A stretch of DNA of 64,000 bases from Streptomyces sp. NRRL S-1022. GTDB taxonomy: Bacteria; Actinomycetota; Actinomycetes; Streptomycetales; Streptomycetaceae. Below, one piece after another: positions 43,370-62,539 of this stretch (position 1 is the first letter of the stretch; each line of letters starts with the position of its first letter). A model generated the notes under the pieces. It was not told the origin of the DNA and did not search any database. It worked only from the letters and a program-made list of their open reading frames with translations. Position numbers and translations under genes: made by a program. The DNA is taken from assembly GCF_000720135.1 (NCBI RefSeq), contig NZ_JOIU01000024.1, forward strand, positions 66,808-130,807, in the 5' to 3' direction.

Positions 43370-43641
43370 GTCAGGTCCTCTCCGTGGTCGGGCGAGGAGG
43401 TCCCGGCGATGAGCAGGTCGCTGTGGACCGGGTGCCCCGCCAGTTCCTCGCGGGCCATGCGCAGGATGTCCTCCCGGCACTGGGTGGACGGCACGGTGCC
43501 GGTGAGCAGGACGGTGTCGCCGCGCAGTTCGAGCCGTACGCCGAGCTCGGCGAGATCTCCGCCGGCCAGGTGCTCGGCGAGGTGGGCGACGCGGTAGTCC
43601 AGGCTCCCTGCCGCCGACGGCGGCGGGCTGGTGTCGGTCAT
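43366..43641 (-). CDS. BON-domain protein
   Basis: A 91-aa single BON-domain protein (YRVAHLAEHLAGGDLAELGVRLELRGDTVLLTGTVPS, then REDILRMAREELAGHPVHSDLLI). BON domains bind phospholipid or other hydrophobic ligands in the envelope (OsmY), or sit in regulators; without a signal peptide this one should be cytoplasmic. It is coupled on both sides by 4-nt ATGA overlaps, so it is made in step with the nucleotidyltransferase-like protein and the phosphoesterase. Confidence 0.85.
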   Translation of the reverse strand: MTDTSPPPSAAGSLDYRVAHLAEHLAGGDLAELGVRLELRGDTVLLTGTVPSTQCREDILRMAREELAGHPVHSDLLIAGTSSPDHGEDLT

Positions 43642-44318
43642 GGCTGCCCCTCCTGGGGGTTGATCACGTTCAGCCGTTCGAGGAGGAAGAGGAAGGCGGC
43701 GGGCATGGGCTGGTCGCCGCACGACGCGCGGACCGTGTCCCAGTCGACCTTCTCGCGGACCGCGCGGGCCACCGGCAGCACCGATCCGAAGTCGCAGTAG
43801 TGTTCGGAGAAGGCGCTGATCAGGCTGCGGAGCAGATCGGTCGGCGAGAGCACGGGCATGAGCACCGAGTCGACCGGCAGGACGTGCGCCCGGTCGAGCA
43901 TGTCCCGGGTGACCGGCTGGTGGGCCAGCGCGAAGATGATGTCGATGTTCTGCCCGTGGCAGGTGGTCTTCAGCAGCCAGTCCTCCGGCGGGGTCCGCAC
44001 GCCGAGACCTGCCTCGCGCAGCGTGGCGGCCACCGCTTCCGCGTCGTCGGGCAGGATGGCGAAGTCGGCGTCGTGCTGGAGGTAGCGGCTGCCGCCGTGG
44101 GCGTAGACGGCCACGCTGCCGGCCAGCGCGAAGGGATGGCCGGCGCGTTTGAGCAGCGCGCCGATCGCCTTGGTGGCCTCCAGGATGGCCTGGCTGCGGT
44201 CCTGCGGCAGTTCCGACGGCTCGTGCGCGGGCATGAGCGGGTCCGGCCCCGAGGCGAGCCGGAGTTCGGTGACCTCCGGCCGCGTCAGGGGCGCGGTGTC
44301 CTCCCCGTTGTGCGTCAT
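43638..44318 (-). CDS. Nucleotidyltransferase-fold protein (AbiEii-like)
   Basis: A 226-aa protein with a minimal nucleotidyltransferase core: LAGSVAVYAHGG (GS motif) followed by LQHDADFAIL (acidic D-x-D pair). Further downstream is a helical part (SPTDLLRSLISAFSEHYCDFGSVL). This matches the AbiEii/kanamycin-nucleotidyltransferase-like superfamily, whose members transfer NMP to proteins, RNA or small molecules. The ATG has GGAGAGG 4 nt upstream. It is first in an operon with a BON protein and a metallophosphoesterase, so the phosphoesterase might reverse its reaction; that is inference. Confidence 0.8.
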   Translation of the reverse strand: MTHNGEDTAPLTRPEVTELRLASGPDPLMPAHEPSELPQDRSQAILEATKAIGALLKRAGHPFALAGSVAVYAHGGSRYLQHDADFAILPDDAEAVAATLREAGLGVRTPPEDWLLKTTCHGQNIDIIFALAHQPVTRDMLDRAHVLPVDSVLMPVLSPTDLLRSLISAFSEHYCDFGSVLPVARAVREKVDWDTVRASCGDQPMPAAFLFLLERLNVINPQEGQP

Positions 44319-44503
44319 GACCTCTCCATTCGGCACCTCGCACCCCGGGCGGCGGCCCCGGGGGGTCGTACGGGTACCCGGCGCTCCGCCCGCGACACGG
44401 CGTCGCCGGAAAGGTTCACTCCGCCACCACGGGCGCCGGGGTCCCGGCGCCGCGGACCCGGTGTGACGTGCGCGGCACCCGCCCCGGGCGCAAGCTGAGA
44501 GGC

Positions 44504-45649
44504 ATGGCACCTCCGCTCGGGCGCGTGGGCCCACGGCAGCCGTGGCAGTCGGCGCACGCGCTGCTGGTGCTCCCGGTCGCGCTCATCGCGGTGATCACGG
44601 TGGTGGACCTGCGGTCCCCGAACGACGTCCACCTCGGGCCGGCCCTGGTGATCGCGCCGGCGCTCACCCCGTCCTTCGCGGGGCCCCGGACCACGGCCTG
44701 CATCGGGGCGCTCGCGGTGGCCGCCCAGGCGCTCATCGGCATCCGACACGGCGGGATCGGCACCACGAACCACGTCGTGCAGCTCATCACCCTGTCCGTC
44801 CTGGTGGTGCTCACCGTCGTCTACAGCGCGCTGCGCCAGCGCCGGCAGGCCCAGCTGGCCCAGGTCCGCACCGTCGCCGAGGCCGCGCAGCACGTGCTGA
44901 TGTGGCCGCTGCCCGAGCAGATCGGCCCGCTGCGGATCGCCTCGCTGTACCTGGCCGCGGAGGACGAGGCGCAGATCGGCGGCGACCTGTACGCGGCGAC
45001 CGTGAGCGACGGCGCGATCCGGCTCCTGATCGGTGACGTCCGCGGCAAGGGGCTGCCCGCCATCGGTGAGGCCGCGCTGCTGCTCGGCGCCTTCCGGGAG
45101 AGCGCCCACCGGCACATCCCGCTGGCCGAGCTGGCGAACCGGCTGAACCAGAGCGTCACCCGGTACGCGGCCGATCTGGAGACCCCGGAGGAGGAGGGCG
45201 AGCGGTTCGCCACCGCCCTCCTCGTGGAGATCCCGGACCGCGACCCGGTCACCCGGATGACCAGCTGCGGTCATCCGCCGCCGCTGCTGCTGAGCCCCGG
45301 ACACGTCGTGACGGTCCCGAGTCTGCACCCGTCGCCGCCCCTCGGGGTGCACGACAGCAGCGAACACACACTGGACGTGTTCTCCTTCGAGCCGGGTGAC
45401 ACACTGCTGCTGTACACGGACGGGGTCGTGGAGGCCCGGGACGAACACGGCCGGTTCTATCCGCTGTCCGACCGGGTCGTGCGGTGGGCCGAGGACAGCC
45501 CCGAGGCGCTGATGCACCACCTGCGACGCGATCTGCTGGCCCACGTCGGCGGCCGGCTCGGCGACGACGCCGCGCTCATCGCGGTACACCGCACCCACGT
45601 CGAACGCCGCCGGCACCACGGCCGCGGGGACCCGGGCCGCGGCGGCTGA
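44504..45649 (+). CDS. Membrane-anchored SpoIIE-type serine phosphatase
   Basis: A 381-aa protein. The first 110 residues hold three or four hydrophobic helices (HALLVLPVALIAVITVVDL, ALVIAPALTPSFAG, LITLSVLVVLTVVYSAL). The remainder is a SpoIIE/PP2C domain (QIGGDLYAATVSDG, IGDVRGKGLPAIG, LYTDGVVEARDEHG, GDDAALIAV). Streptomyces carry many of these with unknown STAS targets. The ATG at 44504 is chosen with GAGAGG upstream; an earlier start would add 12 residues of no clear structure. Confidence 0.88.
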   Translation: MAPPLGRVGPRQPWQSAHALLVLPVALIAVITVVDLRSPNDVHLGPALVIAPALTPSFAGPRTTACIGALAVAAQALIGIRHGGIGTTNHVVQLITLSVLVVLTVVYSALRQRRQAQLAQVRTVAEAAQHVLMWPLPEQIGPLRIASLYLAAEDEAQIGGDLYAATVSDGAIRLLIGDVRGKGLPAIGEAALLLGAFRESAHRHIPLAELANRLNQSVTRYAADLETPEEEGERFATALLVEIPDRDPVTRMTSCGHPPPLLLSPGHVVTVPSLHPSPPLGVHDSSEHTLDVFSFEPGDTLLLYTDGVVEARDEHGRFYPLSDRVVRWAEDSPEALMHHLRRDLLAHVGGRLGDDAALIAVHRTHVERRRHHGRGDPGRGG

Positions 45650-48140: not shown

Positions 48141-48956
48141 TCACGGCTTGCGGGCGACCGCGCCGTACATCGCGATGTCCGCGTCCCGGATGCCCTGCTC
48201 GCCGCTGCCGTCGGGATGCCACTTGTGCACCTGGACGATGCCGGGCTCGACCAGGTCGAGGCCCGTGAAGAAGGCGTGGGCCTCGTCCAGGGTGCGCAGC
48301 CGCATCGGCATGTTGCGGGCCGCGTACTCGTAGGCGACCCGGCCCACCTCCTCCGGCGCGAACTCGGCGGTGCCGATGGACATCGCCAGGTAGCTGCCGG
48401 AGGGCAGCGGCTCCAGCAGCCGCCGTACGACGCCGACCGCGTCGTCCGCGTCCAGCATGAAGTGCACGATCGCGATGACGGTGAGCGCGACGGGCCGGCT
48501 CAGGTCCAGGGTCTCGCGCAGTTCGGGGGCGTCCAGGATGGCCGCGGGGTCCCGGAAGTCGGCCTCCAGGTAGGCGGTGCGGCCCTCGGGGGCGCTGGCC
48601 AGCAGGCCCTGGGAGAGGGTGAGCACGATCGGGTCGTTGTCGACGTAGACGACGCGGGACCCGGGGGCCACGGCCTGGGCGATCTCGTGCAGGTTGGGCG
48701 AGGTCGGGATGCCGGTGCCGATGTCCAGGAACTGGCGCATGCCCGCCTCCTCGGCGAGCCAGCGCACGGCACGGTTCATGAAGTCTCGGTTCGCGCGCAT
48801 GTGCACCGGGAGCGCGGGCCACTCCCGCGCCATCGCGTCGCCCGCCTCCTTGTCGGCGGGGTAGTAGTCCTTGCCGCCGAGTATGTAGTCGTAGATGCGG
48901 GCGGAGTGGGCGTTCTCGGTGTCGATCCGGTCGGCCGGCCATCCGTTGTCGGGCAC
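48141..48956 (-). CDS. SAM-dependent methyltransferase, DUF574/SAMT family
   Basis: A 271-aa Rossmann methyltransferase of the actinomycete DUF574 type. Diagnostic segments are IDTENAHSARIYDYILGGKDYYPADKEAG, the SAM site FLDIGTGIPTSPNLHEIAQ, VVYVDNDPIVL and SIGTAEFAPEEV. The GTG at 48956 is preferred because GGGAGA lies 6 nt upstream; an earlier GTG at 48995 would add 13 residues but has no good RBS. These genes are very often paired with XRE/DUF5753 regulators in Streptomyces, as here. Substrate unknown. Confidence 0.88.
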   Translation of the reverse strand: MPDNGWPADRIDTENAHSARIYDYILGGKDYYPADKEAGDAMAREWPALPVHMRANRDFMNRAVRWLAEEAGMRQFLDIGTGIPTSPNLHEIAQAVAPGSRVVYVDNDPIVLTLSQGLLASAPEGRTAYLEADFRDPAAILDAPELRETLDLSRPVALTVIAIVHFMLDADDAVGVVRRLLEPLPSGSYLAMSIGTAEFAPEEVGRVAYEYAARNMPMRLRTLDEAHAFFTGLDLVEPGIVQVHKWHPDGSGEQGIRDADIAMYGAVARKP

Positions 48957-49016
48957 GCCGTGTCTCCCATTCGGTCGAGGGGTCGGATGCTTCACGTCAC
49001 AGGGGGCGGGTGCGGG

Positions 49017-49892
49017 TCACAACTCCTTGCGCAGCGTGCCGAGCAGGGTCTCGGTCCTCCGGGGGGAGGCGGCCTGGGCGCTCAGCCGGTCCAGGGCCTC
49101 GCGGTAGACCACGACGTCCTCCGTCTTGTCGAGGTAGACGGCGCCGGCGAGGCCCCTCAGGTAGGCGATGTCGGGCAGTTCGCGGGCCTGGAACCGGAAG
49201 AGGTGGTAGGCACCGGCCCGCAGGGCGGGATGCGGTCCGTTGGCGAACGGCATGAGCTGCAGGGTGACGTGGGGCAGCCGGTTGACCTCCAGGAGGTGGT
49301 CGATCTGCGCCCGCATCACCCCCGGGCCGCCGACCGGCCAGCGCAGGACGGTCTCGTCCATCACCACCCACAGCCGGGGCGGTGCCGGCCTGGACAGCAG
49401 TTCCTGGCGGCGCATGCGCAGGGCGACGCGGCGTTCGACGGCCTCGGCGCCGGCGTGCGGCTCGTCCGTGGTCAGCAGGGCGCGGGCGTAGTCCTCGGTC
49501 TGCAGCAGGCCGTGCACGAACTGGTCCTCGTACGCGCGGATCTGCAGGGCCGCCTGCTCCAGGCTGAGGTAGGCGGCGAACCAGTCGGGCATGACGTCCC
49601 GGTAGGTGTGCCACCAGCCGCGCTTGTTGGCCTCGCGGACGGACTGCAGGAAGGTGTCGATCTCCTGCCGGTCGGTGACGCCGTAGACCTGGAGGAGTTT
49701 CTCGGCGTCCGCCAGCCGCAGCCGGGCCACCTTGGCGGCCTCCATGCGCCGGATCGTGGAGTGGCTGACACCGATGGCGGCGCCCGCCTCGGCGTAGCCG
49801 AGGCCGGCCCGGGTGCGCAGTTCCTCCAGCTGTCTGCCGAGGATCATGCGCAGCACGGAAGGGGCGCCGCCCCAGTCGGTCTCCGCGGTCAC
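49017..49892 (-). CDS. XRE-family regulator with DUF5753 domain
   Basis: A 291-aa regulator. The N-terminal helix-turn-helix is RMILGRQLEELRTRAGLGYAEAG followed by AIGVSHSTIRRMEAAK. The DUF5753 C-terminal domain is recognised by WWHTYRDVMPDWFAAYLSLEQAA, IRAYEDQFVHGLLQTEDYARAL and the late segment LPHVTLQLMPFANGPHPA. This class usually works with a small DUF397 partner; no DUF397 gene was found nearby, which is unusual. The GTG at 49892 is chosen by family N-terminal length. Two inverted repeats lie just upstream. Confidence 0.9.
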   Translation of the reverse strand: MTAETDWGGAPSVLRMILGRQLEELRTRAGLGYAEAGAAIGVSHSTIRRMEAAKVARLRLADAEKLLQVYGVTDRQEIDTFLQSVREANKRGWWHTYRDVMPDWFAAYLSLEQAALQIRAYEDQFVHGLLQTEDYARALLTTDEPHAGAEAVERRVALRMRRQELLSRPAPPRLWVVMDETVLRWPVGGPGVMRAQIDHLLEVNRLPHVTLQLMPFANGPHPALRAGAYHLFRFQARELPDIAYLRGLAGAVYLDKTEDVVVYREALDRLSAQAASPRRTETLLGTLRKEL

Positions 49893-49937
49893 GCCCCACC
49901 CCCTCGTCAGGTCCCAGGTCCCGCACATCACCCTCGC

Positions 49938-49971
49938 ACGTGATCGGGCTTGCGAGCCCATTCGATCACGT
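49938..49971. promoter_or_regulatory. Nested dyad upstream of the XRE regulator gene
   Basis: Outer arms ACGTGATCG and CGATCACGT (9 bp, perfect) enclose an inner hairpin GGGCT-TGCG-AGCCC (its first G shared with the outer arm). It lies 46 nt before the regulator start and is a candidate autoregulatory site. Confidence 0.55.
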
Positions 49972-49998
49972 TCTGGCGAATGCAGCATGCACTTCCCC

Positions 49999-50018
49999 AC
50001 TTGCAAATTTCAACTTGC
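49999..50018. promoter_or_regulatory. Repeated ACTTGC elements in an AT-rich stretch
   Basis: ACTTGC occurs at 49999-50004 and 50013-50018 around an AAATTT core, in a locally AT-rich segment upstream of the XRE regulator gene. ACTTGC/GCAAGT repeats in AT-rich promoters are seen near other XRE/DUF397-type loci. Possible promoter or operator for either direction. Confidence 0.4.
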
Positions 50019-51920: not shown

Positions 51921-52856
51921 TCAGGTGGTGTTTCTGCGGCGTTCCGTCAGCCGGTGCTGGTCGGGCCAGCGGACGTCGTAGGCCCAGCCGAGGTGTTCGA
52001 ACCAGCGGATCAGGCGGGCGCTGGCGTCGAGTTGGCCGGTGAGCACGCCGTGCCGGGCACTGGTGGGGTCGGCGTGGTGGAGGTTGTGCCAGGACTCGCC
52101 GAAGGAGAGCGGGGCCAGCCACCACACGTTGCCCGAGCGGTCCCGGCTGCGGAAGGGGCGGGAACCGGACGCGTGGCAGATGGAGTTGATGGACCAGGTC
52201 ACGTGGTGGACCAGGCAGATGCGGACCAGTCCGGCCCAGAAGAACGCGGTGAGCGCGCCCTGCCAGGACCGGGTGAGTGCCGCGCCCAGCAGCGCGGGCA
52301 GGGCGAGGGACGCGAGGACCAGGACGCCGAAGCGCCGGGAGATCAGCATCAGGGCGCGGTCGCGGACGAGGTCGGGCGCGTACGTCCGCGGCGGGGCGTG
52401 CTCGGTCTCGAACAGCCAGCCAAGATGGGCGTAGAGCATGCCCTTGGCGAGGGCACGGGCCGAGTGGCCGTACCGCCAGGGCGAGTGCGGGTCGCCGTCC
52501 CGGTCGGAGTACTTGTGGTGCTTGCGGTGGTCGGCCACCCAGGTGATGAGCGGGCCCTGCACGGCGAGGCTGCCGGCCAGTGCGAGGGCGATCCGCAGCG
52601 GCCGCCTGGCCTTGAACGAGCCGTGGGTGAAGTGCCGGTGGAAGCCGACGGTGATGCCGAGTCCGCTGACCAGGTAGAAGGCGACGGCCAGCGCGAGGTC
52701 CGCGGGACTGAGCCCGTGCCGCCAGGCCAACGGCACGGCGGCGAGCACGGCGAGGAACGGTACGGCGACGAAGACCCCGATCATCAGCTGCTCGCCGGTG
52801 GGCCAGGACCGCCTGCCGGCCGCCAGTGGGGTGGATCCGGAGAACTCCGAGGACAT
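51921..52856 (-). CDS. Membrane fatty acyl desaturase (delta-9 type)
   Basis: A 311-aa integral membrane di-iron desaturase. All three His boxes are present: HRHFTH (residues 73-78), HRKHH (110-114) and HNLHH near residue 258. Paired membrane helices lie around residues 25-70, 86-105 and 165-205. Acyl-CoA/lipid delta-9 desaturases of this type produce monounsaturated C16/C18 chains. It follows the ketoacyl synthase gene by 28 nt on the same strand, so the two are likely co-transcribed. About 41 percent-identical-looking paralogy with the desaturase at 60819 is apparent by eye, but no value was computed. Confidence 0.92.
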   Translation of the reverse strand: MSSEFSGSTPLAAGRRSWPTGEQLMIGVFVAVPFLAVLAAVPLAWRHGLSPADLALAVAFYLVSGLGITVGFHRHFTHGSFKARRPLRIALALAGSLAVQGPLITWVADHRKHHKYSDRDGDPHSPWRYGHSARALAKGMLYAHLGWLFETEHAPPRTYAPDLVRDRALMLISRRFGVLVLASLALPALLGAALTRSWQGALTAFFWAGLVRICLVHHVTWSINSICHASGSRPFRSRDRSGNVWWLAPLSFGESWHNLHHADPTSARHGVLTGQLDASARLIRWFEHLGWAYDVRWPDQHRLTERRRNTT

Positions 52857-52884
52857 GGCGACCCTTTCTCGGCCGGGGACCGGG

Positions 52885-54132
52885 CTAGTCGACGGCGGTG
52901 AAGGCGAGCACGGCGTTCTGGCCTCCGAAGCCGAAGGAGTTGCTGACGGCGGCTCGTATCCGGTGCGGGCGGGACGTCTTGGTGACGACGTCCAGGTCCA
53001 TCGCCGGATCGAGGGTGTCCAGGTTGGCGGTGGGCGGGATCAGCTGGTGGCGCAGGGTGAGCACGGTGCAGGCCGCCTCGATGGCCCCGGCACCGCCGAT
53101 GGCGTGCCCGATGGTGCCCTTGACAGCGGTGACGGGCGGCGGCCGGCGGAAGACCCGGTGCAGGGCGTTGTGCTCGGCGGCGTCGCCCTGCGGGGTGGCG
53201 GTGCCGTGCGCGTTGACGTGGTCGATGTCCTCGGGGGCCAGGCCGGCGTCGGCGAGGGCGCCGCTCAGCGCGCGGGCGGCGCCGTCGCCGTCGGGGTGCG
53301 GGGCGGTGAAGTGGTGGGCGTCGCAGGACGCGCCGAACCCGGCGAGCAGGGCCTCGGGCCGTACGCGCCGGGCGCGGGCGTCCTCGGTGCGTTCCAGGAC
53401 GAGCACGGCGGCGCCCTCGCCGAGGACGAAGCCGTCACGGTCCCGGTCGAACGGGCGGGAGGCCGCGTCCGGGGTGTCCGCGCGGCGGGACAGGGCGCGC
53501 ATCTGGGCGAAGCAGGCGGCGGTCATGCGCAGCCGCGCCGACTCGCTGCCGCCGGCCAGGACCAGGTCGCAGCGGCCGGACAGCAGCCAGTCCCGGGCCA
53601 GGCCGAGCGCGCTGGTGCCGGAGGCGCAGGCGGTGCTGACCACCATGTTGGGGCCGAGCGCGCCGAGGTCGAGGGCGATCTCGGCGGCGGCCATGTTGGG
53701 CACGCTGCGGGGCAGCGCGAGCGGGGAGACGCGTTCGGGGCTGTGGGCGGCGAGCCGGTCGAACTCGGCCTGCCAGCCCTGCATGGACCCGGTGCCGACA
53801 CCCATCACCACGCCGACCCGGGCGCCGTCCCAGCCGTCGGGGGCGAGGCCGGCGCCGGCGACGGCCTCGCGGGCGGCGAGCAGCGCGAAGGTCGTGAACC
53901 GGTCGAGCCGGCGGGCCAGCCGGTGCCCGAGCAGGCCGGCCGCGTCCAGGCCGGGCACCTGGCAGGAGAAGGCCACGGGCAGCCCGTCCAGGGCGGGGTC
54001 GGCGGTGGCGGTGGACCGTCCGGCGCACAGGCCCGCCCAGGCCGCGTCCCGGCCGATACCGGCCGGGGTGACCATGCCCAGTCCGGTGACGGCGACCGGG
54101 GCCCGCCGCGCGCCTGTTCTCACCTGCTGCAT
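52885..54132 (-). CDS. Stand-alone beta-ketoacyl-ACP synthase, FabF-like
   Basis: A 415-aa thiolase-fold condensing enzyme. The Cys-His-His triad is complete: Cys169 in VSTACASG, His309 in NAHGTATP and His343 in KGTIGHAIGGAGA. The C-terminal SNSFGFGGQNAVL is typical of KAS II. It is not next to other fatty-acid synthase genes, which suggests a dedicated chain-extension role. In this locus it sits between a PlsC-like acyltransferase and a desaturase gene, all on the minus strand, which would fit building or tailoring an unsaturated acyl chain. Single FabF-like genes also occur in polyketide loci, but no ACP is visible here. Confidence 0.9.
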   Translation of the reverse strand: MQQVRTGARRAPVAVTGLGMVTPAGIGRDAAWAGLCAGRSTATADPALDGLPVAFSCQVPGLDAAGLLGHRLARRLDRFTTFALLAAREAVAGAGLAPDGWDGARVGVVMGVGTGSMQGWQAEFDRLAAHSPERVSPLALPRSVPNMAAAEIALDLGALGPNMVVSTACASGTSALGLARDWLLSGRCDLVLAGGSESARLRMTAACFAQMRALSRRADTPDAASRPFDRDRDGFVLGEGAAVLVLERTEDARARRVRPEALLAGFGASCDAHHFTAPHPDGDGAARALSGALADAGLAPEDIDHVNAHGTATPQGDAAEHNALHRVFRRPPPVTAVKGTIGHAIGGAGAIEAACTVLTLRHQLIPPTANLDTLDPAMDLDVVTKTSRPHRIRAAVSNSFGFGGQNAVLAFTAVD

Positions 54133-54254
54133 GAGGCGTGATTATCCGGGGCGCGGGCAGCGGTTCCGGGCCGCCGCAACTCGTTCGGCCCAGGTCGGCC
54201 GGTGCTACCACCCGGATGCGTGAACGCGGATGCGCGCGGGCGGGCCGGCCGGGG

Positions 54255-54920
54255 TCAGTGCCGGCCGGCGGGCGCCTCGTCCAGGGCGCGGACCGCGCTG
54301 GACCAGGCTCCCGCGAGCGCGGCCTCCAGGTCGTCCAGCGGTCGGTCGGCGGTGTCCAGGCGCAGGGCGGGGCCGATGTGCACGTGGACGCGGGGGCGGC
54401 GCACGGGCGCGGTGGCCCAGCCGGCGAGCTGCTTGGCGCGGCTGCCGGAGGAGACCCGGCGGGCGCCCGCGTGGCCGACGGGGACGACCGGGGCGCCGGT
54501 GGACAGGGCGAGCCGGACCACCCCGGACTTGAGCCGGCCCGGCGGGCGGTCGTGGGAGGTGTCGTAGCGGGACAGGCCGCCCTCGGGGTAGACGAGCACA
54601 CCGCGGCCGGCGGCGAGGGCGTCGGCGGCGTGCCGCAGGGCGTCCGGGGCGCGGCGGCTGCCCCGGTGGACGGGCACGTACCCCTCCCGGGTCAGGGCCC
54701 GGCCCAGCAGCGGCACCCGCCACAGCCCGGCGGTGGCGAGCACCGCGGGGCGCAGACCCAGCCGGTGCAGGGTGCCGATGAGCAGCACCGGGTCGAAGAA
54801 CGAGGTGTGGTTGGCGGCGAGGACGTACCCGCTGCCGGGCGGGTACGCCAGGTGGCCGGTACCGCTCACGCTCGTGTCACTGAAGACGGGCACCAGGGCC
54901 CCGGCCCACGCGGACAGCAT
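54255..54920 (-). CDS. PlsC-like lysophospholipid acyltransferase
   Basis: A 221-aa acyltransferase with the HxxxxD catalytic motif in LAANHTSFFDPVLL, the second motif REGYVPVHRGSR and the third VYPEGGLSRYD. It resembles 1-acyl-glycerol-3-phosphate acyltransferases, which place an acyl chain on a glycerolipid. GGAGAGGAG precedes the ATG. It is the first gene of a minus-strand set with the ketoacyl synthase and desaturase, and its start is 122 nt from the divergent P450 start, suggesting shared control with the dioxygenase genes. Confidence 0.88.
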   Translation of the reverse strand: MLSAWAGALVPVFSDTSVSGTGHLAYPPGSGYVLAANHTSFFDPVLLIGTLHRLGLRPAVLATAGLWRVPLLGRALTREGYVPVHRGSRRAPDALRHAADALAAGRGVLVYPEGGLSRYDTSHDRPPGRLKSGVVRLALSTGAPVVPVGHAGARRVSSGSRAKQLAGWATAPVRRPRVHVHIGPALRLDTADRPLDDLEAALAGAWSSAVRALDEAPAGRH

Positions 54921-55042
54921 GGGGCACTCCTCTCCGCCGTGTCCGGACCGGCTGCCGGTCGTCACCGGCGGCGCGTTCCGGCGCACGGCCATTCTGCCCC
55001 GAATGCCTGTTTGACGTGCGGTGCCCGCGGGCCGGTGGCTCA

Positions 55043-56335
55043 ATGGCCGTCATGGACTTTCTCGCCGCGTACGACGCGATCCCGGAGGACGACGTCCCGC
55101 AGCGGGTGGCCCTGCTGCGCACGACCATGGAGACCGGCAGGGCGGCCCTGTTCGCCGAGCTGCGCGCCCGCAGGCCGGTGTTCAGCACGCCCGTCGGCGT
55201 GTTCGTCACCCGGCACCCCGACGTCCTGGAGGTGCTGTCGGCGCCCGGGACGTTCACCGTGGGGGTGTTCGGCCCGGCGCTGGAGGACGTGCTCGGCGCC
55301 CCGTTCATCCTGGCCCGGGACGGCGGTGACGTGCACTGGCGGGAGCGCGGGTACGCGCAGCTGATGCTCGCCGCCGAGGACGCGCCCCGGGTGCGGGAGC
55401 TGACCGCGCGGATCGCCGACGAGGTGCTGGACGAGGTCACCGCCCGGGACACCGACACCTTCGACCTGGTCCAGGACTACGCCCGCGTGGCCGCCGCCCG
55501 GGTCGCCGCCGCCTATCTGGGGATCACCGGCATCGCGGAGGAGACGCTGCACTCGTGCACCCGCCGGATGCAGTGGGCGTTCGCCGTCAACCCCGGCCGC
55601 GACCCGGAGATCCACGCGGCGGGCGTGGCGGCGGGGCGCGAACTGCACGACGAGGTGGCCGAGCTGATCGAACGCCGGCGGGACACGGCCCACGACGGCG
55701 GCCCCGACGACGTCCTGGGCAGGATGCTGCGCACCCGGCTGCCCGCCGAGTACGGCTTCGACGACGAGCGGATCAACGCCAACCTGGTGGGCTACCTGAC
55801 GGGCTATCAGCAGAACGCCACCCAGTGCACGGCGACCGCCCTCAAGGAGCTCGCGGTGCGTCCCGAGGTGCTGGCCGAGGCGGCGCGGGCGGCGCGGGAC
55901 GGCGACCCGGCGCGCTTCGACGCCTATGTGTGGGAGGCGCTGCGCTTCCACCCGTTCGTGCCCGTCACGCCCCGGCTGTGCCTGCGGGACCACGTGCTGG
56001 CCGCGGGCACCCCGCGGCAGACGGTGATCCCGGCCAAGAGCGTGGTGCTGGCCTGCTTCGCGTCGGCGATGTTCGACGAGGACGTGCTCGACGCGCCGGA
56101 GGAGTTCCGGCCCGGCCGGCCGCCCGCGCACAACCTCGTCCTCGGCTACGGCGCCCACGACTGCGCCGGCAGGTACGCGGCCCGGGTGATCGTGCCCGAA
56201 CTGGTGCGGCGCGTGCTGCTCCGTCCCGGTGTGCGCCCGCTGCCGGGCGCCGAACGCGCCCTGGACTACGCGGGCACCCCGTTCCCCCAGCACTACGCGG
56301 TGCGCTCGGGCCGTGCCGCCGTGGCCCCGAACTGA
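55043..56335 (+). CDS. Cytochrome P450 with CYP74/diol-synthase-like I-helix (oxylipin P450 candidate)
   Basis: A 430-aa soluble P450. The K-helix ExxR is present (EALR, Glu298-Arg301) and the haem loop is GYGAHDCAG with Cys374 as ligand. The I-helix reads TGYQQNATQCT: the usual A-G-x-D/E-T O2-activating pair is missing, and Asn258 and Gln261 give an N-x-x-Q arrangement. In fungal linoleate diol synthases, as I recall, an N-x-x-Q amide pair in the P450 domain drives hydroperoxide isomerisation without O2 or reductase. It is 153 nt upstream of the cyclooxygenase-like gene on the same strand. The inferred job is rearrangement of the dioxygenase's peroxide product. ATG at 55043 or 55052; RBS weak. 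Confidence 0.85.
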   Translation: MAVMDFLAAYDAIPEDDVPQRVALLRTTMETGRAALFAELRARRPVFSTPVGVFVTRHPDVLEVLSAPGTFTVGVFGPALEDVLGAPFILARDGGDVHWRERGYAQLMLAAEDAPRVRELTARIADEVLDEVTARDTDTFDLVQDYARVAAARVAAAYLGITGIAEETLHSCTRRMQWAFAVNPGRDPEIHAAGVAAGRELHDEVAELIERRRDTAHDGGPDDVLGRMLRTRLPAEYGFDDERINANLVGYLTGYQQNATQCTATALKELAVRPEVLAEAARAARDGDPARFDAYVWEALRFHPFVPVTPRLCLRDHVLAAGTPRQTVIPAKSVVLACFASAMFDEDVLDAPEEFRPGRPPAHNLVLGYGAHDCAGRYAARVIVPELVRRVLLRPGVRPLPGAERALDYAGTPFPQHYAVRSGRAAVAPN

Positions 56336-56488
56336 CCCCACCCGGACCGGCGGTGACCGCCGCCCGGCCGGGACGGCGATCCGGCCGCGCCCCCCCGCCC
56401 GAGCCCGGCCACGACCCGCCTGTGCGCGGCCCGGCCGTGACCCGCGTCGCGGCACCGGGACCCGACCCGTGAACCGACCGGAGGACCC

Positions 56489-58111
56489 ATGACCGTCACC
56501 ACTCGTCCGTCCCCGACCCGGACCGTGCCGTGGACCGGGGCCCGGGACAGGTCCCGGGACGGGTTGCGCAACCGCTTCGAGACGCACCTGCTGACCCATT
56601 ACGGCCCGGCCTGGCAGGCGGCCCAGCGCAGCCGGTGGCTGCAGCGCAGGCTCAACTCCAAGCTGACCGACCTGGCCGTGCTGAAGGCTCCGACGCGCCC
56701 CGACCCGCTCAGCACCAAGGCCCCGTACACCTCGTGGGACTCGCTGACCGACCGGTCCTGGGTGGGCCGGCACCTGCCGCCGGTGGCCGCGCCGCCGAAG
56801 GACCTGCCCGCCCCGGAGAAGGTCGCCGAGCTGTTCCGCCGGGAGGGCGAGGGCCGCCCGTGCACCCGGTCCAGTGCGCTGCTGCCGGCGTTCGCGCAGT
56901 GGTTCACCGACGGCTTCCTGCGCGGACATGCGGCCACCGGCGACCCGCGCCGCACCGACTCGCCGCACACCCTGGACATGTGCCAGCTGTACGGCGACCG
57001 TGAGGAGGTCACCGCCTGTCTGCGCACCTTCGAGGGCGGCCGGCTGAAGAGCCGGATCATCGACGGGGCGGAGTTCCCGCCCGCCCTGTGCGCGGACGGG
57101 AGGATCACGGACGAGTTCCGGTCCATCCGCCCGGTCCGGTTCGACGAGGTGCCCGGGGAACTGCTGGACACGCTGTTCGCGTGCGGCGGGGAGCGGGTGC
57201 ACGCGCACATCGGGCCGATGGCGCTGAACGTGCTGTTCCTGCGGGAGCACAACCGGGTCGCCGGCCTCCTCGCCGCCGCGCATCCGGACTGGGACGACGA
57301 GCGGATCTTCCAGACCACCCGCAACACGCTGATCGTGCTGATGATCCGGGTGATGCTGGAGGAGTACATCAACCACATCACGCCGTACCACTTCGGCTTC
57401 GTCCTCGATCCGGTGCGCACCGACCGCGGGGTGTGGCACCGGGAGAACTGGGCGACGATCGAGTTCAGTCTGGTCTACCGCTGGCACAGCCTGATCCCGT
57501 CGGCGTACACCATCGCCGGCCGTCCGGTGCCGCTCGCGCGGACCATCGCCAACGGGCGGCTGGTCGTGGACCGGGGGCTCGGCCCGCTCTTCGAGGACCT
57601 CTCCCGGCAGCCCGCCGGTCTGTCCGGCCTGTTCAACACCGACGAACTGCTGCTGCCGATCGAGGCGCACAGTGTCGCCGTCGGCCGGGAGCTGCGGCTG
57701 GCCTCGTACAACGACTACCGCGCCTACTACGGCTTCCCCCGGGTCACCGACCCGCGGCAGATCTCCGGCGACCCGCGGGTGCAGGAGGCGCTGCTGGACC
57801 TGTACGGCGATGTGGACGCGATCGACCTGTACGTCGGGCTGTTCGCGGAGGAGCCGGAGCCCGGCGCGATCTTCGGGCGGCTGCTGGAACGCATCATCTC
57901 CGTCGACGCGTTCTCCGAGGCGCTGAACAACCCGCTGCTCTCGCCCCGCCTGTTCGGGCCGGACACCTTCTCCCCCGAGGGCCTGCGCGTGGTCCGCGAG
58001 ACGCGCAGTTTCTCCGACCTGGTGCACCGCAACCTGCCGGAGGACAAGGCGCGTTACGACGTGTCGCTCGGCCGGACCGCGGCCGGCGCCCGGGCCGCCG
58101 CGGCCCGCTGA
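56489..58111 (+). CDS. Cyclooxygenase-like haem dioxygenase (animal-peroxidase superfamily)
   Basis: A 540-aa haem protein strongly resembling mammalian prostaglandin H synthase by eye. Matching blocks: YTSWDSLTDRSW (about 80-91), FAQWFTDGF (135-143), LREHNRVAGLL (251-261), FSLVYRWHSLIP (326-337), SRQPAG (372-377), DLYGDVDAIDLYVGL (437-451). Tyr330 and His333 correspond to the radical Tyr385 and proximal haem His388 of COX. Ser476 sits at the Ser530 (aspirin) position. At the distal position COX has FAQxFTH, but here the His is Asp141, so classical peroxidase activity is doubtful. The N-terminal EGF domain and signal peptide of COX are absent. Likely reaction: haem-tyrosyl-radical dioxygenation of an unsaturated fatty acid. 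A GGAGG RBS precedes the ATG. Confidence 0.9.
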   Translation: MTVTTRPSPTRTVPWTGARDRSRDGLRNRFETHLLTHYGPAWQAAQRSRWLQRRLNSKLTDLAVLKAPTRPDPLSTKAPYTSWDSLTDRSWVGRHLPPVAAPPKDLPAPEKVAELFRREGEGRPCTRSSALLPAFAQWFTDGFLRGHAATGDPRRTDSPHTLDMCQLYGDREEVTACLRTFEGGRLKSRIIDGAEFPPALCADGRITDEFRSIRPVRFDEVPGELLDTLFACGGERVHAHIGPMALNVLFLREHNRVAGLLAAAHPDWDDERIFQTTRNTLIVLMIRVMLEEYINHITPYHFGFVLDPVRTDRGVWHRENWATIEFSLVYRWHSLIPSAYTIAGRPVPLARTIANGRLVVDRGLGPLFEDLSRQPAGLSGLFNTDELLLPIEAHSVAVGRELRLASYNDYRAYYGFPRVTDPRQISGDPRVQEALLDLYGDVDAIDLYVGLFAEEPEPGAIFGRLLERIISVDAFSEALNNPLLSPRLFGPDTFSPEGLRVVRETRSFSDLVHRNLPEDKARYDVSLGRTAAGARAAAAR

Positions 58112-58118
58112 ACCCGGC

Positions 58119-58379
58119 TCAGTCCCCGGCTCGCGCGTGCGCGAGCAACGCCTCGGCGGCGGTGCGCAGTTGCTCCGCCGCCGTGACGCAGGCGGCGGCC
58201 TGCCGCTCCAGTGCGGGCCGGCTCCTCGCGGGGGCCGCCGGACAGCCGTCCAGGGTGGCCGCGGTGGCGCGCAGCCGCCGCGCGTACTCCTCCATCAGCT
58301 CGGCGTCCGACCGCAGCGAGCCGACGTGGTCGAGGAGTTCGGTGTCGTACGACGTGACGTCGGGGGACTCGGTCACCAT
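58119..58379 (-). CDS. Small helical protein of unknown function
   Basis: An 86-aa acidic protein predicted to form two long amphipathic helices (SYDTELLDHVGSLRSDAELMEEYARRLRATAATLDG and a second after APARSRPA). The size and helical-hairpin pattern recall WXG100/ESX-like proteins, but no WxG turn is present. It follows the hydrolase/decarboxylase-like gene by 34 nt on the same strand and has a GGGAG RBS, so it is probably co-expressed and may be a partner or carrier of that enzyme. It converges with the cyclooxygenase-like gene, 7 nt apart. Confidence 0.7.
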   Translation of the reverse strand: MVTESPDVTSYDTELLDHVGSLRSDAELMEEYARRLRATAATLDGCPAAPARSRPALERQAAACVTAAEQLRTAAEALLAHARAGD

Positions 58380-58413
58380 GGCGTGCTCCCGCGGGCGGTG
58401 GGGTGGGGTTGCG

Positions 58414-60582
58414 TCAGCGCGGCAGTACGGCGCCGGCGCTGCGGTGCTGCATGAACTGGGGGCAGGTGAGGACGAACCGGGGCCGGGCACCCTCCAGGCC
58501 GAGCCGGCGCAGTTGCCCGGCGAGGGGTGCGTCCGCCGCGGTGTCCAGCCGCAGCCGGATGCCGGCGCCGGTGTGCAGCCGCAGCCTGCCGTGGGTGCGG
58601 ACCAGCGTGCGGATCGTGCTCTCGCCACGGCGGCCGTAGAGGATCCAGTCGGCCTCGGGGCAGCGCAGGCCGCGCCGGAGACGGCCGTCGACGGTCATGC
58701 CGAGGTCCGGGGAGCGGACGCCGATCTGCCGGCCCGTCAGGTCGGCATCGGCGGTCACCCGCAGTGCGGGCTGGGCCCAGATCTCCTGGCCGACGACCCT
58801 GGCCTCCTCGCTGGTGACGGCGAGGCAGAGCACGTGCCGGCCGGTGCGGCGCAGGTCGGCGCGGCGCAGCAGGTCCAGCGCGACGTCGTAGGGGCGCGGC
58901 CGCCACAGGTCGTCGACCAGCACGGACAGGACGATCTCGGTGTACGGGCCGATCGTGGTGCAGCGGTGCTCGTACAGCGAGAGCACGGCCATGGCGCCCC
59001 GGCCCAGCCGGCTCGGCGTCATCCAGGTGACGTCGGGCAGCAGCCCGCGGGCCGCCCCCGCGTCGACGCGGAAGCACAGGTGGGCGGCGGAGGAGTCGTA
59101 GTAGCGCACCGGCACGTCGACGGGGCCGGCCGCGGTGGGCACCGAGGTGGTGGGCAGGGTGAGGAAGGGGTAGCCCTCGGGCGGGTTGGCGCGGTCCTTG
59201 AGCTGGTAGGCCTGGGTGCGTACGACGGGCCCGCGGTAGGGGGCGAGGGCCTCGTCGACGCGCTCGCGGGCCTCCGGGACGACGGTCCTGAGGTGCTCGA
59301 TGTACTCGCGGAGCATGTGGCACAGCGGGAACTCGTGGGCGGGCCCGGTGTAGTCGACCTCGTACCAGTTCGGATGCGGGTCGAACGCGGAGCCCGCGCC
59401 GCGGCCGTCGAGGACGGGCACGATGTCGTGCTGGTTGGTGATGCTGGCGACCCAGGTGCGAGGGTCCGCGGGCTTCTTGTTGTCGACCGGGGAGCCGACG
59501 GCGATCACGTGGGTGACCCGGTAGGTGCGGCAGAACTCCTCGTCCTGGGCCAGGTTCATCACCGCGATGCCGCCCTCGCTGTGCCCGATCAGCGCGAGGT
59601 CGGCGCCGCGCGGGATGCCGTAGTCCGCCAGGGCGAGCAGGATCGAGCGGGTGTACGGCGAGTCGGCCATGAACAGGTTGCGCCAGGCGCCGACGAAGTC
59701 CTGCGGGGAGTCGTTGCGGGGGCGGCCGGGTGCCATGCCCGGCGCCTGGAGGACGTACCGGACGACGCCGTCGGGGCCGCGCACGTTCTGCAGCAGGATC
59801 CGCCCGTCGGTGGAGAGCATCTCGATGTTGCGCAGGAACCCGAGGAAGGAGCCCTCCGGGGCGATGACCTGGCGTTCCTGGTCGGTCAGGTCGACGGCCT
59901 CGGCGGCGCCCTCGCCCTTGTCCAGGCCGGCGAGGTGGGCGGCGCTGACGCCGTGCAGCGGGTCGGCGGACAGTTCGCGGCCGGTGGCCAGCGCCCAGCC
60001 GGTCTCGTCGTTCTTCGGGTCCTCGTCCAGCAGGGCGCGGATCGCGAGGAGTTCGGCCATCACCGGGGCCAGCCCGGACAGCGCCCGCTGGGCTCCCTGG
60101 TCGCGGAACAGAGCGCGCAGGGAGCGTACGGCCGCCAGGTCCTTGTCGGCGGTGACGGCCTCCGTCAGCCGGCGCATGCCGGGGTCGCGCTCGAACTCGG
60201 GGTGGTCGACCAGCACGGCGGCGATCCGCAGCCGCAGCGAGGTGACCGCCACCAGCGCGGCCAGGCTCTCCCGGCCCAGCACTTCCCCGGCGGCGCCGAT
60301 CACATGCCCCATGCCCTTCGGTGCCGTGATCGCGGAACCGCCGAGGCCCTGCTTGTTCGTCAGGGCCCGCAGCAGCGCCCACCGGGCGGCGAGGCCGCTA
60401 CGGGGGCGGCGGCGGGCGGAGACGGTCAGGGCCGGGGCGAACAGCGCCGTGCTGGTGCGTTCGGACACCGCGCGGATGCCCTCGGCGACGCCGACCACGT
60501 CCCGCGCGCACCGGCGCAGCAGTTCCCTGGCGTCCTGGCCGTCCGGCGCCGGCCGTCCGGGTGCGCTGCCGTCCGCTCGCAT
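58414..60582 (-). CDS. Serine hydrolase (lipase-like) fused to an acetoacetate-decarboxylase-like domain
   Basis: A 722-aa multidomain protein. Residues about 10-215 are helical. About 225-480 form an alpha/beta hydrolase with the nucleophile elbow GHSEGG (Ser335), a candidate acid in NQHDIVPVLDG and a candidate His in TGPAHEFPLCHMLREYIEHL. Residues about 490-700 resemble the acetoacetate decarboxylase family (VRYYDSSAAHLCFRVD, YTEIVLSVLVDD, TSEEARVVGQEIWAQP). No signal peptide. I infer that the hydrolase frees a fatty acid from lipid for the nearby dioxygenase; the ADC-like domain may act on an oxidised product. The ATG at 60582 is chosen for GAGGGAG 6 nt upstream; a GTG at 60606 is possible. 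Confidence 0.8.
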   Translation of the reverse strand: MRADGSAPGRPAPDGQDARELLRRCARDVVGVAEGIRAVSERTSTALFAPALTVSARRRPRSGLAARWALLRALTNKQGLGGSAITAPKGMGHVIGAAGEVLGRESLAALVAVTSLRLRIAAVLVDHPEFERDPGMRRLTEAVTADKDLAAVRSLRALFRDQGAQRALSGLAPVMAELLAIRALLDEDPKNDETGWALATGRELSADPLHGVSAAHLAGLDKGEGAAEAVDLTDQERQVIAPEGSFLGFLRNIEMLSTDGRILLQNVRGPDGVVRYVLQAPGMAPGRPRNDSPQDFVGAWRNLFMADSPYTRSILLALADYGIPRGADLALIGHSEGGIAVMNLAQDEEFCRTYRVTHVIAVGSPVDNKKPADPRTWVASITNQHDIVPVLDGRGAGSAFDPHPNWYEVDYTGPAHEFPLCHMLREYIEHLRTVVPEARERVDEALAPYRGPVVRTQAYQLKDRANPPEGYPFLTLPTTSVPTAAGPVDVPVRYYDSSAAHLCFRVDAGAARGLLPDVTWMTPSRLGRGAMAVLSLYEHRCTTIGPYTEIVLSVLVDDLWRPRPYDVALDLLRRADLRRTGRHVLCLAVTSEEARVVGQEIWAQPALRVTADADLTGRQIGVRSPDLGMTVDGRLRRGLRCPEADWILYGRRGESTIRTLVRTHGRLRLHTGAGIRLRLDTAADAPLAGQLRRLGLEGARPRFVLTCPQFMQHRSAGAVLPR

Positions 60583-60760
60583 CCGACACTCCCTCGGCTC
60601 GGCCACTCAAGGACAGGGCTGCGGCCGCGTCGGGGGGCGCGGCCTCGCTCCCATGGTCGGCCAGGGCGTCCGCGCCCGCACCTTCATCCATCCAGGTAGA
60701 GGATGCCGCCGGGTGCCGTACGGCCCGTCGAGCCTGGGCCGCAGGGGCATATGGCTGCCG

Positions 60761-60766
60761 CATAAT
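60761..60766 (+). promoter_or_regulatory. -10 hexamer upstream of leader ORF and desaturase
   Basis: CATAAT differs by one base from the consensus TATAAT, which is rare in such GC-rich DNA. It ends 8 nt before the ATG of a 15-codon frame, so the transcript would begin at or next to that ATG. No clear -35 is visible. Confidence 0.5.
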
Positions 60767-60774
60767 CGCCGCAC

Positions 60775-60822
60775 ATGACCCCCTGTATTCCCCCGCCTGC
60801 CCTGGTGGGAGGCGCGCCGTGA
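60775..60822 (+). CDS. Possible 15-aa leader peptide coupled to the desaturase gene
   Basis: ATG-initiated frame coding MTPCIPPPALVGGAP. Its TGA (60820-60822) overlaps the GTG start of the desaturase gene in the sequence GTGA, and a CATAAT -10 element predicts a leaderless mRNA starting at this ATG. The Pro-rich PPP stretch could slow ribosomes. It may only serve translational coupling, or be a chance frame. Confidence 0.4.
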   Translation: MTPCIPPPALVGGAP

Positions 60823-61808
60823 CCCTGTCCTCCGAACGCCCCGAGGGCCTGGGCACCCCGCTCCCCGACACCGTTCCGGTCAGCCGGCCGCTGCGCACGA
60901 ACACGGTGCTCACGATCGTGGTGCTCCCGCTGGCCGTCCTGGCGCTGGCCCTGCCCGTCGCCCTGGCCGGCGGCTGGGGGCCCCGCTGGTACGACGTGGC
61001 CCTCGGCGCCGGGATGTACGCGCTGTCCATCATGGGCATCACCGCCGGCTACCACCGGTATTTCACCCATCTGTCGTTCAAGGCGAAACGACCGCTGCGG
61101 TTCGTCCTCGGTGTCGCGGGCGGTCTCGCCATGGAGGGCCCGGTGACGCTGTGGGTGGCCGAGCACCGCCGCCACCACCAGTACGCGGACCGGGAGGGGG
61201 ACCCGCACTCGCCGTGGAAGTACGGCACCGGCCGGCGGGCGCTGCTCAAAGGGCTGTGGCACGCCCAGGTCGGCTGGTTCTCCTCGACGGTCCGGTCCCA
61301 CTACCCGCGCTACGCCCCCGATCTGCTCGCCGACCCGGACGTACGCCGCCTGGACCGCTGGTACCCGCTGACCGTCGCCGTCTCCCTGGGCCTGCCGCCG
61401 GTGCTGGTCCTGGCCGTCACCCAGGACACCCGCTCCGCGCTGATCACCTTCTTCTGGGCGAGCCTGGTCCGGTACGCCGTCGTCCACCACGTCACCTGGT
61501 CGGTCAACTCCGTGGCCCACGCCTTCGGTCCGCGCCATTACACCACCCGCGACCAGTCCCGGGACGTGGGCTGGGTGGCCCTGCTGACCTTCGGCGAGGG
61601 CTGGCACAACCTCCACCACGCCGACCCCAACAGCGCCCGGCACGGCGGGCTGCGCGGCCAGCCGGACCTCACGGCGTGGCTGATCGCCCGGTTCGAGCGG
61701 TGGGGCTGGGCGTACGACGTACGGTGGCCCGACGAGCGGCGGATCACCGCGCGGCTGCGCGAGGAGGCCGCGGGCAGGGAACCGCACCCTCAACCACCCG
61801 TGAAGTAG
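60819..61808 (+). CDS. Membrane fatty acyl desaturase (second copy)
   Basis: A 329-aa di-iron membrane desaturase paralogous to the one at 51921-52856. His boxes: HRYFTH near residue 85, HRRHH near 122 and HNLHH near 270. Four membrane helices are predicted (about residues 30-75, 95-115 and 180-220). The GTG start has GGGAGG 6 nt upstream and overlaps the stop of a possible leader peptide. It is divergent from the hydrolase gene (236 nt between starts). Together with the other desaturase it brackets the dioxygenase/P450 pair. The 3' end overlaps the convergent DUF4239-like gene by 19 nt. Confidence 0.93.
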   Translation: MTLSSERPEGLGTPLPDTVPVSRPLRTNTVLTIVVLPLAVLALALPVALAGGWGPRWYDVALGAGMYALSIMGITAGYHRYFTHLSFKAKRPLRFVLGVAGGLAMEGPVTLWVAEHRRHHQYADREGDPHSPWKYGTGRRALLKGLWHAQVGWFSSTVRSHYPRYAPDLLADPDVRRLDRWYPLTVAVSLGLPPVLVLAVTQDTRSALITFFWASLVRYAVVHHVTWSVNSVAHAFGPRHYTTRDQSRDVGWVALLTFGEGWHNLHHADPNSARHGGLRGQPDLTAWLIARFERWGWAYDVRWPDERRITARLREEAAGREPHPQPPVK

Positions 61809-62539
61809 CGGGTGAAGGGAGCGGAGCCGACGGCGAACAGGCCGGTGAAGGTCTGGTTCAGCTCGTAGACCAGCAGCACGGTGAAGGTGATGAGCGCCGT
61901 CAGGCCCATCACCATCACCACGTGGGTGAAGCTCCGCCGCACCCCGAACATGAACATGAAGACCACGGTGAGCACACCGCCGACGACCAGGCCGAACCAC
62001 AGCACGGGTGACAGGGAGTCGGCCACGTCCGCCTCCCGGCCCCGCCGGGCGTCGTCCAGCGCGCTCAGCTCGGCCAGGGTCTCCTGGAGCGTGGCCTGCT
62101 GCACCGGGGTGGCGTCGGCGGGGACCTGGCCCGCCGCCCGCAGGTCGTTGAGCAGTTCCCAGCCGCGCCGGCCCGGCGGCTGCCCCTGCGCCATCGCGGG
62201 CCACTCGGCGGACACGACGTGGTGCACGTACGCGTCGACGGCTTCCCGGGTCCGCTCCCCCTCCGGCGCCGGCAGTCCCGCGGACAGCAGCCGGATCTGG
62301 TGGGCGGCGCTCGCCTCCGCCTGCACATGGCCCACCGCACCGGACCGGGTCTCCCACACCGACACCATCGACAGGCCGAGGACGAGGGCGTAGAGCACGC
62401 CGACCATCATGGAGATGTACTCGGCGACGTCCTCGCGGGGTTCCGCGTCCGGGGCGGGGGGCCAGTAGTGGTGCCGGATCATCACGACGCCCGCGGCGAC
62501 CATGGCGATCCCCACAACGACCGCGAAGGTCTCGATCAT
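61790..62539 (-). CDS. DUF4239-type membrane protein
   Basis: A 249-aa integral membrane protein with the bestrophin-like DUF4239 layout: two N-terminal helices (FAVVVGIAMVAAGVVMI and MMVGVLYALVLGLSMVSVW), a cytoplasmic or periplasmic helical domain (HVQAEASAAHQIRLL, VDAYVHHVVSAEWPAM), and two C-terminal helices (LWFGLVVGGVLTVVFMFMFG, VVMVMGLTALITFTVLLVYELN). Function is unknown; a channel-like role has been suggested for the family. Overlaps the desaturase 3' end by 19 nt. Confidence 0.88.
   Translation of the reverse strand: MIETFAVVVGIAMVAAGVVMIRHHYWPPAPDAEPREDVAEYISMMVGVLYALVLGLSMVSVWETRSGAVGHVQAEASAAHQIRLLSAGLPAPEGERTREAVDAYVHHVVSAEWPAMAQGQPPGRRGWELLNDLRAAGQVPADATPVQQATLQETLAELSALDDARRGREADVADSLSPVLWFGLVVGGVLTVVFMFMFGVRRSFTHVVMVMGLTALITFTVLLVYELNQTFTGLFAVGSAPFTRYFTGG

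Follow-up and report, generated by a model that had tools for sequence, protein, structure and literature searches.

A Streptomyces gene cluster with a COX-like haem dioxygenase and a separate cytochrome P450, a candidate unfused bacterial oxylipin pathway

The 64,000-nt stretch of Streptomyces sp. NRRL S-1022 analysed here (contig NZ_JOIU01000024.1, positions 66,808 to 130,807; hereafter the window, in whose positions all coordinates are given) contains a locus spanning 51921-61808. It holds genes for a cyclooxygenase (COX)-like haem dioxygenase, a cytochrome P450, a lipase-like serine hydrolase joined to an acetoacetate decarboxylase (ADC)-like part (HydADC), two membrane desaturases, a ketoacyl synthase (KAS) and a PlsC-like acyltransferase (Table 1). 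Every gene named here is an open frame whose third codon positions are strongly GC-rich; those listed in an earlier note on this DNA are all present, each matching the family assigned to it there. That note read them as an oxylipin cascade arranged around two divergent promoters. PlsC/P450 and HydADC/desaturase 2 are indeed divergently oriented gene pairs, but a scan of 54880-61000 for sigma-70-type sequences returned zero promoter-like sites, so the phrase describes gene orientation alone.

Table 1. Features of the locus and its border, in window positions (ORF, open reading frame)
Feature	Position	Strand	Basis
Desaturase 1 (desat1), SCD1/Δ9-type membrane FA_desaturase, accessory paralogue	51921..52856	-	Pfam FA_desaturase 1.8e-20
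Stand-alone FabF-type KAS, Streptomyces add-on	52885..54132	-	family match
PlsC-like acyltransferase, variable	54255..55043, start uncertain, likely near 54920	-	Pfam Acyltransferase 4.1e-19
Cytochrome P450, predicted hydroperoxide isomerase	55043..56335 (ORF from 55016; likely ATG 55043)	+	Pfam p450 1.8e-12
P450 I-helix motif GYQQNATQ (acid to Gln, Thr to Asn, Gln at +3)	55802..55825	+	alignment
P450 haem-thiolate Cys, GYGAHDCAG, HxCxG pocket	56162..56164	+	alignment
COX-like haem fatty-acid dioxygenase (bacterial 10S-DOX type, predicted), 540 aa	56489..58111	+	animal haem peroxidase/COX family, E 2.4e-45
Dioxygenase Asp141, FTDGF, position of COX distal His207	56909..56911	+	Asp in 49/49 rows
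Dioxygenase Tyr293 (COX Tyr348), within MLEEYINHITPY	57365..57367	+	49/49 rows
Dioxygenase Tyr330 and His333 (COX Tyr385 and proximal His388), YRWH	57476..57487	+	49/49 rows
HydADC, lipase-like serine hydrolase with C-terminal ADC-like part, 730 aa	58414..60582 (ORF reaches 60606)	-	GHSEGG motif
HydADC Ser343, predicted nucleophile, GHSEGG	59578..59580	-	alignment
HydADC Asp394, predicted triad member	59425-59427	-	alignment
HydADC His430, predicted triad member	59317-59319	-	alignment
HydADC ADC-like C-terminal part	58417..59199	-	Pfam PF06314 29.0 bits, below 29.8 cut-off
Desaturase 2 (desat2), SCD1/Δ9-type, module's conserved desaturase	60819..61808 (ORF from 60561; start likely near 60819)	+	FA_desaturase
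Bestrophin-like membrane protein, neighbour in Streptomyces only	61790..62539	-	Pfam PF14023 5.7e-59

The best match of the 540-aa protein among solved structures is COX-1, and its predicted model aligned to COX far better than to peroxidases. COX thus outranks peroxidases both by sequence and by model, as the label 'cyclooxygenase-like' in the earlier note implied, and the protein does not cluster with non-dioxygenase peroxidases, an outcome that the note had regarded as fatal to its reading. The likeness to COX is one of family, however; the nearest described enzyme is a cyanobacterial 10S-dioxygenase (10S-DOX), not COX proper. Like that type, the protein has the COX fold with N-terminal membrane-binding helices, and it carries FTDGF at the distal site, MLEEYINHITPY in the centre and VDAFSEA near the end, the last with Glu replacing Gln. 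The published 10S-DOX motifs are FTD (distal), YIxxITPy (central) and DAFxQ (terminal), the enzyme of Nostoc punctiforme (B2J5P4) has FTDSF at the distal site, and the described 10S-DOX takes oleic acid as its substrate (PMC13049297). Tyr385, Tyr348 and the proximal His388 of animal COX all have counterparts. The distal His207 is not kept, being Asp in all 49 aligned rows, among which, as in the P450 alignment, near-identical strains occur and some genomes appear twice. Four further loci outside the first alignments (L032-L035) show the same COX and P450 motifs as the other rows, and L035 is not a duplicate. At the positions of COX Ser530 and Arg120 the window protein has Ala and Val in a single pairwise alignment read by eye. 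Plant alpha-dioxygenase (alpha-DOX) is not its closest match, and NCBIfam holds no model for it or for HydADC. We conclude that the protein encoded at 56489-58111 is a COX-like haem dioxygenase of the bacterial 10S-DOX type, with its activity predicted from sequence and model. A prostaglandin-like endoperoxide was considered as a product and rejected, as no source of polyunsaturated fatty acids was seen in the locus and the described 10S-DOX uses oleic acid.

In the adjacent P450 the haem Cys and the HxCxG pocket are intact. The acid/alcohol pair that activates O2 in the I-helix of conventional P450s is Gln/Asn here, with another Gln three residues on (GYQQNATQ), so that this hallmark of the conventional type is missing. 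The spacing, with Asn four and Gln seven residues after the Gly or Ala, is common to this motif and to the I-helices of fungal linoleate diol synthases (LDS) and epoxyalcohol synthases (EAS), given as GMxxN887QxQ for 5,8-LDS and AMxxN914QxQ for 10R-EAS (PMC13049297, Table 3). The 'isomerase-like I-helix' of the earlier note is therefore real, and its combination with the HxCxG pocket is found in the Streptomyces copies and partly elsewhere. The locus alignment of 38 rows comprises Q-N 13, E-S 12, E-N 10 and E-T 3; both residues of the pair are changed in all 13 Streptomyces rows, which are Q-N. By comparison, the 28 other P450s parsed from the same genome include 18 with a D/E-T pair and 0 with Q-N (47 matches at 30 loci gave 29 parsed frames, one of which was excluded as a non-P450). 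Because mutating these I-helix residues in the fungal enzymes altered catalysis but did not abolish it (PMC13049297), we regard the motif as a pointer and not as proof. Assignment to the P450-derived glycosyltransferase activators was rejected: TIGR04515 scored 53.7 bits against a cut-off of 343, and the Cys ligand is kept.

The survey of neighbourhood conservation on which the earlier note had made its reading depend showed that the gene set recurs elsewhere in Streptomyces and also in a second family of actinobacteria (that of G971), which we take to be Streptosporangiaceae. Only a few candidates were scored per genome (e.g. three in the dioxygenase survey), and absences are accordingly provisional. 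The dioxygenase was found at a level of at least 52% in 10/392 sampled Streptomyces, in nine of which (not in G187) the P450 adjoins it. HydADC is present in all nine Streptomyces COX loci with wide context, a set that includes the window and leaves out G102, whose contig measures 3.9 kb; gene order is rearranged in three loci (L037-L039), with most of the set retained. In the second family 25/150 genomes have the dioxygenase gene, and 26 of 27 COX matches were fetched with their surroundings. At a level of at least 51%, the P450 lies next door in 24/24 loci (as a fragment only in L104, and cut by the contig end in L098), and the lipase and a desaturase each occur in 21/24. The P450 family is found in 23/23 genomes holding these loci vs 1/127 others of the family, where a COX fragment adjoins it. 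COX distances track P450 distances, with correlations of 0.94 for 35 loci and 0.90 for 22 second-family loci. Elsewhere in the phylum, the P450 family adjoins the dioxygenase in two of five wide-context loci at E <= 1e-60 (L085, L086) and lies about 4 kb off in a third (L088). As the same genes recur jointly in related genomes, the gene set is more than a chance association. Several single loci deserve mention. In S. cellostaticus (L048:8887-9973) the P450 and PlsC genes look truncated and the dioxygenase match is full length, and a genome from another actinobacterial class (G513; L085, L059) has two COX-like genes. Two loci, one with the P450 and only a COX fragment (L170:8732-10209, G1142), the other with the P450 and no COX (L172:8144-9448, G016), are probably decaying.

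The lipase half of HydADC has a homologue (L083) that reaches Pfam Lipase_3 at its cut-off. In acetoacetate decarboxylases the catalytic Lys lies within an E-x-W-G-x-P-K segment; HydADC reads EIWAQPA, and no Lys is found there in the window or in the aligned rows. Comparison of the ADC-like part with PDB sequences gave no match, and the predicted HydADC model is poor (mean predicted local distance difference test score 58), its fold search yielding 492 matches at E <= 10 and 0 at E <= 0.001. With two candidates scored per genome, (near) full-length HydADC was detected in 24/392 Streptomyces, including all 10 with the dioxygenase. In each of the other 14, one or more of the flanking genes of the window still adjoin HydADC, which indicates an unchanged chromosomal position; these loci include one KAS remnant (L145), three intact KAS genes (L076, L153, L154) and one desaturase 1 (L154).

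The predicted nucleophile of HydADC largely follows the dioxygenase. Ser343 is kept in 9/9 readable dioxygenase-positive sampled Streptomyces and in 21/21 second-family dioxygenase loci having the lipase, and Gly takes its place in 12 of the 14 dioxygenase-less Streptomyces HydADCs. In a tree computed without the Ser343 column the Gly copies fall in at least two well-supported places, perhaps three or more: L145 joins the dioxygenase-positive L048 (ultrafast bootstrap, UFBoot, 98) and the large Gly group joins the group of the window (UFBoot 99). Among 120 protein-database HydADCs listed of 298, 80 have Gly, 30 Ser and one Arg, and nine do not match the pattern. Matched by name and by eye to the COX and P450 lists, 16/17 have Ser (P0142 as GYSEGG); the exception, P0138 with Gly, is from a second S. 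diastatochromogenes assembly and is linked to a dioxygenase by name only. Five dioxygenase loci (L091, L092, L093, L098, L101) lack the ADC-like part. On the strength of the Ser343 pattern and of these loci, we associate hydrolysis with dioxygenase presence and suppose that the ADC-like part has a separate use. The fusion of a serine hydrolase to an ADC-like domain described in the earlier note holds for the window, but the domain match is weak and the domain is absent from those five loci. In alpha-DOX loci of other Streptomyces an ADC-less lipase half adjoins an alpha-DOX-like enzyme, together with a different P450. One lipase family thus accompanies haem fatty-acid dioxygenases of two kinds, which supports a substrate-releasing role.

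Other surroundings of this lipase family were also recorded. At L083:6114-12367 and L158-L161 an FAD-linked oxidase (none seen in L160), a P450, the lipase and the alpha-DOX-like gene stand in a row, and L079:9259-14701 combines an alpha-DOX-like gene, two desaturases and a lipase homologue. L163:8471-14691 (L162 and L164 in part), with genes for a bestrophin-like protein, a lipase homologue, a Pfam-less protein of about 490 aa, a PlsC-like protein, an acyl carrier protein (ACP) and a FabF-like protein, is a third kind of locus.

The two desaturases differ in their affiliation. Desaturase 2 matches acyl-CoA desaturase 1 in the PDB (4ymk, E 1.2e-29) and, under midpoint rooting, groups with 10 of the 12 second-family locus desaturases entered and with an alpha-DOX-locus desaturase (UFBoot 98). 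Desaturase 1, whose His boxes are HRHFTH/HRKHH/HNLHH, groups with another desaturase of the same genome (L167). Among the nine wide-context Streptomyces COX loci, window included, desaturase 2 and KAS each occur in eight and desaturase 1 in five. The PlsC-like gene is present in only 5/10 Streptomyces COX loci, and tblastn detected neither KAS nor PlsC in the 24 second-family loci. KAS and PlsC, which the earlier note listed in its apparent oxylipin locus, are thus Streptomyces add-ons.

Taken together, we consider it somewhat more likely than not that the locus is an unfused bacterial oxylipin pathway, in which the dioxygenase would form an allylic hydroperoxide and the P450 would isomerise it without O2 or a reductase. 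Beyond the observed genes, residues, fold ranking, linkage and Ser343 pattern, every catalytic step and the order of the steps are read from the anatomy of the locus. SCD1-type desaturases would desaturate C16/C18 acyl chains in cis at Δ9, and HydADC (Ser343-Asp394-His430) would free the acid from a lipid. With Tyr330 presumably forming the radical and His333 binding the haem, the dioxygenase would then abstract an allylic hydrogen and add O2 at C10 or C8; a single double bond at Δ9 should suffice for this. Finally, the P450 with its Gln/Asn pair would break the O-O bond of the hydroperoxide and rearrange it to a diol, epoxyalcohol or allene oxide, much as the fungal LDS and EAS do. Processing of the product may fall to the ADC-like part, and KAS and PlsC may supply or re-esterify the chain. 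Of the original cascade proposal, the gene set, the COX ranking and the conservation stand, but KAS, PlsC and the ADC-like part do not belong to its core.

Several observations weigh against such a pathway. The gene is rare across the phylum (7/396 genomes at E <= 1e-60, own included), and co-occurrence p-values, computed ignoring relatedness, are inflated by shared ancestry. The lipase is missing from three of the 24 second-family loci, and a desaturase likewise from three. No such P450 lies near the distant COX-like genes of L087, L089, L113 and L114 (the two second-family loci among them, L113 and L114, also have no lipase or desaturase) or near the alphaproteobacterial COX-like relatives L049-L052. 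In G187 COX is without this P450 in its 20 kb, the best relative being 35% identical and located elsewhere, and in G016 the P450 is without COX in 15 kb. HydADC persists without COX in 14/392 Streptomyces, which implies some other role for it; Ser343 is kept in two of these 14 (in both, the pieces share a reading frame, and only the G327 piece contains a stop) and also in second-family G881 (L077), where no COX was found. The second-family P450s retain the acid of the pair and have Ser or Asn in the alcohol position, and a full E-T pair occurs in a P450 from another class and in a homologue labelled cyanobacterial, which leaves room for O2 chemistry in the P450 family.

These last points bear on an unlikely alternative, in which the dioxygenase acts as above but the P450 is a conventional O2-activating enzyme, a monooxygenase or else a peroxygenase, and hydroxylates the dioxygenase product with the help of host redox partners. 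The nearest solved P450, GcoA (62 bits), is an O2-dependent enzyme, and among 120 homologues listed of 246 the E-T pair is kept in 5 and acid plus Ser in 64 (E-S), the others being Q-N (39), E-N (11) or gapped (1). However, both pair residues are changed throughout the Streptomyces copies, no ferredoxin or reductase was found among 20 frames searched in 41102-63960 (frames at 42638-44534 unsearched), and the upstream enzyme should deliver a hydroperoxide, on which the fungal P450s sharing the Asn/Gln spacing act (PMC13049297). It is also rather improbable that the product is a complex lipid of the membrane or surface and no free oxylipin arises, with KAS and PlsC building the chain or ester, the lipase remodelling it and the dioxygenase and P450 decorating it. 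The recurrence of KAS in 8/9 wide-context Streptomyces COX loci, its joint persistence with HydADC without COX (L076, L153, L154) and the L163 lipase relative beside PlsC-like, ACP, KAS and bestrophin genes would fit such a product; against it, the 24 second-family loci show desaturase, P450, COX and lipase with KAS and PlsC not seen. That the haem protein serves as a peroxidase in stress or defence, with lipid genes beside it by coincidence, seems highly improbable; the distal Asp and the fold ranking speak against a peroxidase role. A defence system was likewise rejected, as PADLOC gave no match among the five proteins tried.

The oxylipin pathway proposed here resembles several known systems in part. 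The 10S-DOX of Nostoc punctiforme (B2J5P4; Brash 2014 via PMC13049297) is also bacterial, about 540 aa long, COX-folded and equipped with membrane-binding helices, shares the distal FTD, YIxxITPy and the catalytic Tyr and His (DAFxQ there, DAFSE here), and is likewise a COX relative paired with a second enzyme that acts on the hydroperoxide; its partner, however, is a separate catalase-related hydroperoxide lyase, instead of a P450, lipase and desaturases. Fungal fusions of a dioxygenase (DOX) and a P450 (DOX-CYP; LDS, EAS and allene oxide synthases (AOS); Ppo) combine a haem dioxygenase with a P450 having the HxCxG Cys pocket, and LDS/EAS share the G-x3-N-x2-Q I-helix spacing with the Streptomyces copies. 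Here, in contrast, there are two genes (55016-56335, 56489-58111), COX-type N-terminal helices, and a linked lipase and desaturases. Some mushroom DOX-CYP fusions also yield a 10S-hydroperoxide (PMC11719350). The inferred succession of lipase, COX-fold enzyme and isomerase-like P450 recalls animal COX with prostacyclin or thromboxane synthase, but the window protein lacks the distal His, shows Ala opposite Ser530 in the pairwise alignment and has no EGF part, and no endoperoxide is expected because no arachidonate source was seen. Alpha-DOX loci (L083, L158-L161) share a haem dioxygenase, a P450 and the same-family lipase, and differ in the alpha-DOX-like dioxygenase, the different P450 and the added FAD-linked oxidase. 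Bacterial COX-family sequences have been noted as putative proteins in family 4 of the peroxidase-cyclooxygenase superfamily (PMC4420034), the accessible part of which mentions no actinobacterial gene cluster or P450 partner for these 'bacterial cyclooxygenases'.

The type of cascade is thus already known from animals and fungi, and a cyanobacterial COX relative with another partner has been described. The unfused dioxygenase-P450-lipase-desaturase cluster of actinobacteria was not found in the literature covered, which lies mostly outside subscription journals and is weak evidence of absence; within these bounds this agrees with the earlier note, which was aware of no described actinomycete cluster of this kind. 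According to a 2026 review, fungal P450 partners might descend from a P450 of bacterial origin that was at one time fused with a member of the COX family (PMC13049297). Actinobacteria hold such a pair unfused, with a lipase and desaturase, partly in named, cultivated Streptomyces. It is possible, if somewhat doubtful, that the locus is the free-standing prokaryotic counterpart of the fungal DOX-P450 fusions, perhaps a living relative of their ancestor. It would then represent a complete cascade of lipase, COX-fold enzyme and self-sufficient isomerase, in which the P450 series from E-T through E-S/E-N to Q-N would record the change from O2 user to isomerase. The unfused pair makes the origin of the DOX-P450 cascade testable, it offers stand-alone proteins for work on mechanism and structure, and the locus points toward an unexplored class of actinomycete lipid products.

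Upstream of the locus, at 48141-50006 of the window, an S-adenosyl methyltransferase gene (Methyltransf_19) adjoins a helix-turn-helix/DUF5753 regulator gene, and this flank recurs at the locus.

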